The notes below the pieces were generated by a model. That model had not been told where the DNA came from and did not search any database. It saw nothing but the letters and a program-made list of their open reading frames with translations. Positions 3,622 to 6,600 of a stretch of DNA of 64,000 bases are shown here, one piece after another (within the stretch, counting starts at the first letter, position 1; every line of letters starts with the position of its first letter). This DNA is from Nitrospinota bacterium (GTDB lineage Bacteria; Nitrospinota_A; UBA7883; JACRLM01), in the NCBI GenBank assembly GCA_016208975.1, contig JACQXA010000001.1, positions 1 to 64,000 on the forward strand. The letters are read 5' to 3'. Position numbers and translations under genes: made by a program.

Positions 3622-6600
3622 ATGACTGAGGTCGCCACCTATAGGTCGGGCAAAGAGCCGATTTCACGCAGGAATTTCTCCCGCATCCCCACGATCGTAG
3701 AAATTCCCAGGCTGTTGGAGATCCAGACCAGGTTTTACGAAAAGTTCCTGCAGAAGAACGTCGCCCCGCAGAGGCGGGCCAGCGTGGGGCTACAGGAGGT
3801 TTTCACGGGCGTTTTTCCCATCACGGACTACAACGAGACCGCTACGCTGGAGTTTAAAGGGTACGAGCTGGGCATTTGGGAATGCAAATGCGGCGAGTAC
3901 ATGGACCTTGGCGGGCCAGGGGTGGTATGCCCCACGTGCAAGCGTGAGGTGAGCTACAAGGAAACCTATCCCACCGAGGAATGCCTCAAGCGGGGCCTTA
4001 CATACGCCGATCCGCTAAAGATAAAAGTACAGCTTATCCTCAAGTCCAAAGACGAGGAGACCGGCGAGACGCAGGTTCGCGAGATAAAGGAGCAGAAAAT
4101 CTATCTCGGCGAAATACCGCTGATGACCGACACCGGCACGTTCATAATCAACGGCACCGAGCGGGTGGCCGTTAGCCAGTTGCACCGTTCCCCGGGCGCG
4201 TTCTTCACCTCCGAGAAGGGGAAAGGCGCCCAGGCAGGGCTGACAAGCTACTCCGCCAGGCTAATACCGTACCGGGGCTCCTGGCTGGACTTCGAGTTTG
4301 ACGTGAAAGACATCCTTTACGCGAGGATAGACCGCAGGCGCAAATTCCAGGCCACCATCCTGTTGAAGGCGTTGGGGTACGACACGCAGGACATCCTGAA
4401 GTTCTTCTACAACTCCGTGCAGGTGCATTACAGCGCGGCCAAGGACGAGTTCACCGTGGACCTGTCCAAGGACATATTGCCGCTTGGGTTCAAGGCTCCC
4501 TTGGACATAAAAGACCCAAAAACCGGCGAAGTGGTGCTGAAAGCCGGCAGGAAGCTCAACAGGAAAACCCTTCGCCATCTGGAGACTTCCGGCGTCAAAT
4601 CGCTGAAGCTCACCGAGGACGAGGTTCTGGGCCGCTTCATGGCCGAAGACATAGTGGACGAGGCCACCGGCGAGATATTTATTGAGAACAACAGCGAGAT
4701 AAAGCAGGACACGCTGAAAACCATCCGGGAGCGCAGGATAGATTCCTTCCCGGTGCTGGTGATAGACGAGCAGTTCAGGGACACAGCCATCCGCGACACG
4801 TTGCATATGGACAAGGTGGAGTCCACCGAAGAGGCTCTGAAGGAGATTTACAAGAGGATGCGCCCCGGCGACCCGCCCACGGCGGATACGGCGCGCGCCC
4901 TGTTCGAGAACCTGTTCTTCAACCCGAAACGGTACGACCTTTCGGAGGTGGGAAGGCTGAAGCTGAACACCAGGCTTGGGCTGGAGTTCCCCCTGAACAA
5001 GCGCCTGTTGACCAAGGAAGACATCCTGCACACCCTCAAGGTGCTGTTCGATCTGCGCCGGGGGCAGGGCCAGGTGGACGACATCGACCATCTTGGCAAC
5101 CGCCGGGTGCGCTCCGTGGGCGAGTCGGTGGAGAACCAGTTCCGCATAGGCCTTGTCCGCATGGAGAAGACCATAACCGAGCGGATGAACATGATGGACC
5201 TGGCGGCCTGCATGCCGCACGACCTGATCAACTCCAAGCCGGTTACCGCGGCCATAAAGGAGTTCTTCGGGTCCTCCCAGCTGTCACAGTTCATGGACCA
5301 GACAAATCCGCTGTCGTCGGTTACGCACAAGCGCAGGCTTTCGGCCCTTGGGCCGGGCGGCCTTACCCGGGAGCGGGCGGGGTTCGAGGTGCGCGACGTC
5401 CATCCGAGCCATTACGGGCGGATATGCCCCATCGAGACCCCTGAAGGCCCGAACATCGGCCTTATATCCTCCCTTTCCACTTACGCCCGGGTCAACGATT
5501 TCGGGTTTATCGAGACCCCGTACAGGAAAGTGGTGGACGGGAAAGTGACCGCCGAGGTCAGCTATCTTTCCGCCATGGAGGAGGATAAATACACCATAGC
5601 CCAGGCCAACGCGACCCTCGGCAAAGACGGCGCGTTCCTGGACGAGCTTATATCGGCCCGGCGGGGCGGCGATTACGTGCTGGTGCCGCCCAACGCGGTG
5701 GACTGCATGGACGTGTCGCCCAAACAGCTGGTGTCTGTTGCCGCGTCGCTGATACCGTTCCTTGAGAACGACGACGCCAACCGCGCCCTCATGGGTTCGA
5801 ACATGCAACGCCAGGCAGTGCCGCTTCTAAAGACCGAGGCCCCATACGTGGGCACCGGTATGGAGTTGAAAGTGGCGCGGGACTCCGGCGCCGTGGTTTC
5901 CGCCAGAAACGCCGGGGAGGTGATTTCGGTGGACTCCTCGCGAGTGGTTGTCCGCGCCGAAACCGGCGACCGGCACGAGTCCAAGGTGGACATCTACCGG
6001 CTCACCAAATACTCGCGGTCCAACCAGAACACCTGCATCAACCAGGTTCCCATAGTGAGCCTGGGGCAGAAGGTGAAGAAAGGTGACGTGATAGCCGACG
6101 GGCAGAGCACCGACCGGGGCGAGCTGGCCCTGGGGCGCAACGTGCTGGTGGCTTTCATGCCCTGGAACGGGTACAACTTCGAGGACGCCATAATCATATC
6201 CGAGAAGATAGTGAAGGAAGACGTGTACACCTCCATCCACATCGAGGAGTTCGAGGTGGAGGCGAGGGACACGCGGCAGGGCAAGGAAGAGATAACCAGG
6301 GACATACCCAACGTCTCCGAGGACTCTTTGAGGAACCTGGACGAGTCGGGCATCATAAGGATAGGCGCCAAGGTGAAGACCGGCGACATCCTGGTGGGCA
6401 AGGTTACTCCGAAAGGTGAAACGCTCCTTTCGCCCGAGGAGAAACTGTTGAAAGCCATCTTCGGCGAGAAGGCCGGAGACGTGCGCGACACATCCCTCAC
6501 GGTCCCCCCCGGCAACGAGGGCACCGTGATCAACGTGAAGGTGTTCTCCCGCAGGGGCTCCGACAAGGACGCCCGCGCGGAAGCCATCGAGAAAGATGAG

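Follow-up and report, generated by a model that had tools for sequence, protein, structure and literature searches.

A four-cysteine insertion in the beta1 lobe of the RNA polymerase beta subunit that resembles the beta' zinc ribbon and may have been copied from it long ago

Results

The RNA polymerase (RNAP) beta subunit encoded in a Nitrospinota genome carries a ribbon-sized insertion with four cysteines in its beta1 lobe, and this segment resembles the zinc ribbon of the beta' subunit more than it resembles other zinc ribbons. The explanation that we favour as probable is a joint one, in which a segment encoding the beta' ribbon was copied into the beta1 lobe long ago, passed on vertically and retained as a rigid knob that serves structure or docking.

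A ribbon-sized insertion in RpoB

The window, that is, the whole stretch of 64,000 nucleotides analysed here, contains rpoB (3622..7671, forward strand), which encodes a beta subunit of 1349 aa with Pfam Rpb2 domains, and rpoC (7762..11928, forward strand), which encodes a beta' subunit of 1388 aa. Ahead of rpoBC, the intervals 412-488 and 699-3457 hold tRNA-Trp, nusG, rplK, rplA, rplJ and rplL in an ordinary order (protein names from the translations). Alignment of the window RpoB to that of E. coli K-12 placed exactly 28 additional residues, I85-Y112 (3874..3957, forward strand), between G76 and E77 of the E. coli protein, a length equal to that of one ribbon; the original prediction that E. 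coli RpoB has a short loop at this place in the beta1 lobe was thus borne out. The four-cysteine ribbon itself spans W86-Y112 (3877..3957, forward strand), presents the ligand pattern CxC-x12-CxxC with C88, C90, C103 and C106, and is matched by a beta' ribbon HMM at 3877-3954 (E 4.9e-4). The interval first singled out, 3877-3951, corresponds to W86-V110 and does lie inside the insertion. In RpoC, the presumed parent of this segment is the zinc-binding-domain (ZBD) ribbon W69-L95 (7966..8046, forward strand), which the RpoB ribbon profile matches at G000:C1:7963-8046 (E 1.0e-7), and whose cysteines C71, C73, C86 and C89 have, as had been proposed and as the translations confirm, the same spacing as those of RpoB. 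With additional residues at a fixed site between conserved regions, missing in other lineages, the segment is a lineage-specific insertion of RNAP beta. By alignment, I155-K156-E157 of the window RpoB (4084..4092, forward strand), in the beta1 lobe as well, correspond to E. coli beta I117-K118-E119, which we take to be the Mfd/CarD contact strand.

Likeness to the beta' zinc ribbon

The two ribbons of the window are identical at 13/27 residues, or 9/23 when only non-cysteine positions are counted, with permutation p values of ~1e-5 for the score and 1.4e-4 for identities. When 70 beta ribbons were compared with 61 beta' ribbons as families and the cysteine columns were left out, the likeness gave z 6.6 and was reached in 0/20,000 column shuffles; traits that every zinc knuckle shares are not accounted for by such shuffling, but they are by the genome-wide and PDB searches. 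The non-cysteine columns of the two families agree in order, reading W/E/G/Y/GVV/EV.

In a search of 385 whole genomes, a profile HMM built from 16 RpoB ribbons returned the RpoB ribbons first and then a second set of matches at profile positions 13-40, with E of ~1e-8 to 1e-4 per genome; among the matches listed, those in the second set were RpoC at the loci that were translated. Against PDB chains, the best 60 matches of the same profile were all RNAP beta' or cyanobacterial gamma-type, including 2 or 3 chains that bear the depositor's label 'beta' but have the length and position of beta'; no solved beta chain bearing the insertion was among these 60. The rpoC models of NCBIfam were matched by 15/16 of the RpoB ribbon rows (best 6e-6); other zinc ribbons ranked far lower. 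Pfam was the exception, as single RpoB ribbon members had a weak match to TerY_C (E 5e-4) but none to the Rpb1 model. The reverse search, with a beta'-ribbon profile HMM over 60 genomes, found RpoC in 59/60, and its sole other matches were RpoB ribbons in 20 genomes, the window's among them. One draft genome yielded two copies of the rpoC ribbon (G011:C25 and G011:C68), probably from redundant contigs of the bin. Overall, these results show a profile likeness that holds in both directions and stands above that to other zinc ribbons, Pfam excepted, which supports the special likeness to beta' that had been proposed. The basic loop between the cysteine pairs, however, is missing from the RpoB ribbon, where most K/R columns of beta' are E, G or P, and the segment is therefore classed as a diverged copy and not as a beta' ZBD.

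Predicted structure and place on the enzyme

AlphaFold2 modelling of RpoB residues 1-543 from a 44-row alignment gave a pLDDT of ~92 over the segment, which was folded into short strands; AlphaFold on the single sequence of the same residues gave a pLDDT of 32. Fold searches with the model of the whole 543-aa lobe, rather than with the ribbon alone, returned only beta chains, as expected, with E. coli beta at Z 29. The beta1 lobe has been assigned as the lobe that contacts Mfd and CarD (PMC5302886, PMC8318588). Our best reading is a rigid knob at the surface of the beta1 lobe (protrusion), on the upstream side of RNAP. The position near downstream DNA that had been suggested is unlikely, since the beta1 domain is the one bound by Mfd (PMC8318588).

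Distribution of the insertion

Genomes from the window organism's own family, order, class and phylum carry the insertion, which is general in Nitrospinota-like bacteria. Its named bearers are Nitrospinota/Nitrospina, Tectomicrobia, Entotheonella (in a cysteine-free form), Aquificota including Aquificaceae (as a CxxC variant) and a MAG labelled Thermodesulfobacteriota. The original prediction was to be given up if the segment proved to be general in the phylum and to have no special likeness to beta'; it is indeed general in the phylum and beyond, but the special likeness is real. Six further families (G025, G099, G105, G210, G241 and G246) have a longer version that includes a second ribbon. 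Tandem double ribbons with at least eight cysteines were seen at the same site in the RpoB proteins L179, L180, L181, L182, L199 and L141, and in several double-ribbon proteins the first half (WECxCGKLKGM) seems to resemble beta' more than the window's ribbon does. Related, longer cysteine insertions presumably also exist in the RpoB of some Acidobacteria, as the original prediction had noted. E. coli and about 55 further genomes that were read lack the insertion and have a short loop at that site, and a scan of viral contigs found nothing. Other length variation was noted in Nitrospina-type RpoB, where the N-terminal part is generally longer: in that of Nitrospina (L028/L187, genome G028), ~50 additional residues follow VLFDREA, ahead of the REVKEQK strand, in the same lobe.

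On RpoB trees built with the ribbon columns left out, the bearers cluster, with 7 changes against 19.4 in shuffles and at least 2 forced, and a single clade of ribbon bearers was not rejected (AU p 0.26). The best trees place non-bearers, E. coli included, among the bearers, which would mean loss of the insertion, on a backbone that is weak. Because of this weak backbone, gain and loss look alike and several gains are possible.

Loss of the cysteines

The cysteines are present or absent as a set: all four occur in 63/82 RpoB rows, and none or one remains in the motif in the other 19/82. Cysteine state changes 7 times on the RpoB tree, and 6 of these changes are forced by well-supported branches. 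In the cysteine-poor rows, W86, E92, L96, G97 and G98 are kept without exception (19/19, 100%), and the beta' ribbons of these rows retain their four cysteines wherever they are readable. Cysteine-poor or cysteine-free proteins include L047, L080, L083, L086, L087, L090, L091, L094-L098, L100-L102, L105, L107 and L188, and a DDNG-type turn often replaces the second cysteine pair in such ribbons. Judged from sequence, the all-or-none loss would fit a shared metal site, and the RpoB ribbon probably binds zinc where the four cysteines are present; the persistence of its remaining residues would fit a role in shape or docking that is independent of metal.

Discussion

Most work on RNAP insertions concerns the E. 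coli and Thermus-type enzymes, and E. coli is without the RpoB ribbon. The segment described here makes it possible to test whether a domain was copied from one large RNAP subunit to the other, and it could serve as a phylogenetic marker for branches deep in the bacterial tree. Its natural four-cysteine and cysteine-free versions, being forms of one module, also provide a way to ask what a ribbon does on the protrusion.

As to its origin, the original prediction had offered intragenomic copying or convergence, and both terms need qualification: copying fits best if it was ancient, and convergence is the main rival. In the reading that we prefer, an ancestor of Nitrospinota, Tectomicrobia, Aquificota and some other lineages would have acquired, once or a few times, a copy of the beta' ribbon (~84 nt) in the loop between two strands of the beta1 lobe, and inheritance since then would have been vertical. 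Copying of recent date, or ongoing rpoC-rpoB gene conversion within each genome, might be expected from two adjacent genes whose ribbons share nearly half of their residues in the window, but we rejected it and leave it almost no probability: the window ribbons are identical at only 48/81 bases with unlike flanks, codons at shared residues match in 10/13 cases where codon usage predicts 9.6, and beta/beta' pairs from the same genome were not closer than cross-genome pairs in 57 genomes (p = 0.14). Convergence would mean that the insertion began as a zinc ribbon from an unrelated or unknown source and grew similar to beta' as a fellow CxC-CxxC knuckle with the usual glycines and hydrophobic residues. 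Because a motif of 27 residues is short, this account keeps some weight, and weak matches to TerY_C, DUF1451 and rubrerythrin ribbons also speak for it; we nonetheless consider it unlikely, given that the reciprocal genome searches returned only beta and beta', that the best 60 PDB chains were of beta'/gamma type and that the non-cysteine columns agree in order. A wider version of the copying scenario can be put forward tentatively, as a possibility that we hold with limited confidence: the ancestor of a large Gram-negative assemblage may have gained a duplicate of the rpoC segment within rpoB, and with it paired paralogous beta/beta' ribbons, and the RpoB copy may later have been doubled in some lineages, become metal-free in others and been deleted towards E. 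coli, whose short loop would then be secondary.

As to function, the ancient copy would form a rigid knob with a structural or docking role on the protrusion, at the upstream face and on the lobe used by Mfd and CarD, and it would work through a conserved W86 / E92-Y93 / L96-G97-G98 face rather than through metal or a nucleic-acid-binding loop. The four cysteines, whose repeated loss marks them as evolutionarily labile, could instead belong to a regulatory switch in beta that senses zinc or redox state; we judge this improbable, since lineages without any cysteines keep the rest of the segment, which suits a role in shape better. Still harder to sustain is the idea that the ribbon replaces CarD on the beta1 lobe or is tied to it. 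The two would share a lobe, as the ribbon lies in that of the CarD/Mfd contact (PMC5302886), but the window genome has frames that resemble both CarD (172 aa) and Mfd (1163 aa), and no strict co-occurrence or exclusion of the ribbon and CarD-like frames was detected in 60 genomes. Replacement of CarD was rejected on the ground that CarD-like short frames were found in these genomes both with and without ribbons.

Comparison with known systems

Our search of the open literature returned no description of the RpoB segment; subscription papers lay mostly outside that search, so an earlier account may exist. Insertions in bacterial RNAP beta are well known (PMC2939025; PMC3417386), and betai4, betai9, betai11 and betai12 are among the names in the nomenclature of Lane et al. 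(PMC2939025). Like betai4, betai9 and betai11, the RpoB ribbon is inserted between shared regions and confined to some lineages, but it is only 28 aa long, lies N-terminal to betai4 and is a four-cysteine ribbon where those are BBM2 or helical modules. With the expanded RpoB cysteine insertions it shares the site, mostly the WECxCG start, and a CxC followed by a cysteine pair 12 or 13 residues on, whereas the expanded forms add a second ribbon in tandem and reach at least eight cysteines and ~60 aa. The beta' ZBD, for example that of E. coli with C70/C72/C85/C88, has in common with the RpoB ribbon the CxC-x12-CxxC pattern, a W or Y before ExCxCG, an aromatic residue after it, GVVC and CxxEV. 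In contrast to the beta' ZBD, the RpoB ribbon is located in beta and not in the clamp, its loop is mostly free of the basic residues of beta', its cysteines have been lost repeatedly, and its distribution is patchy.
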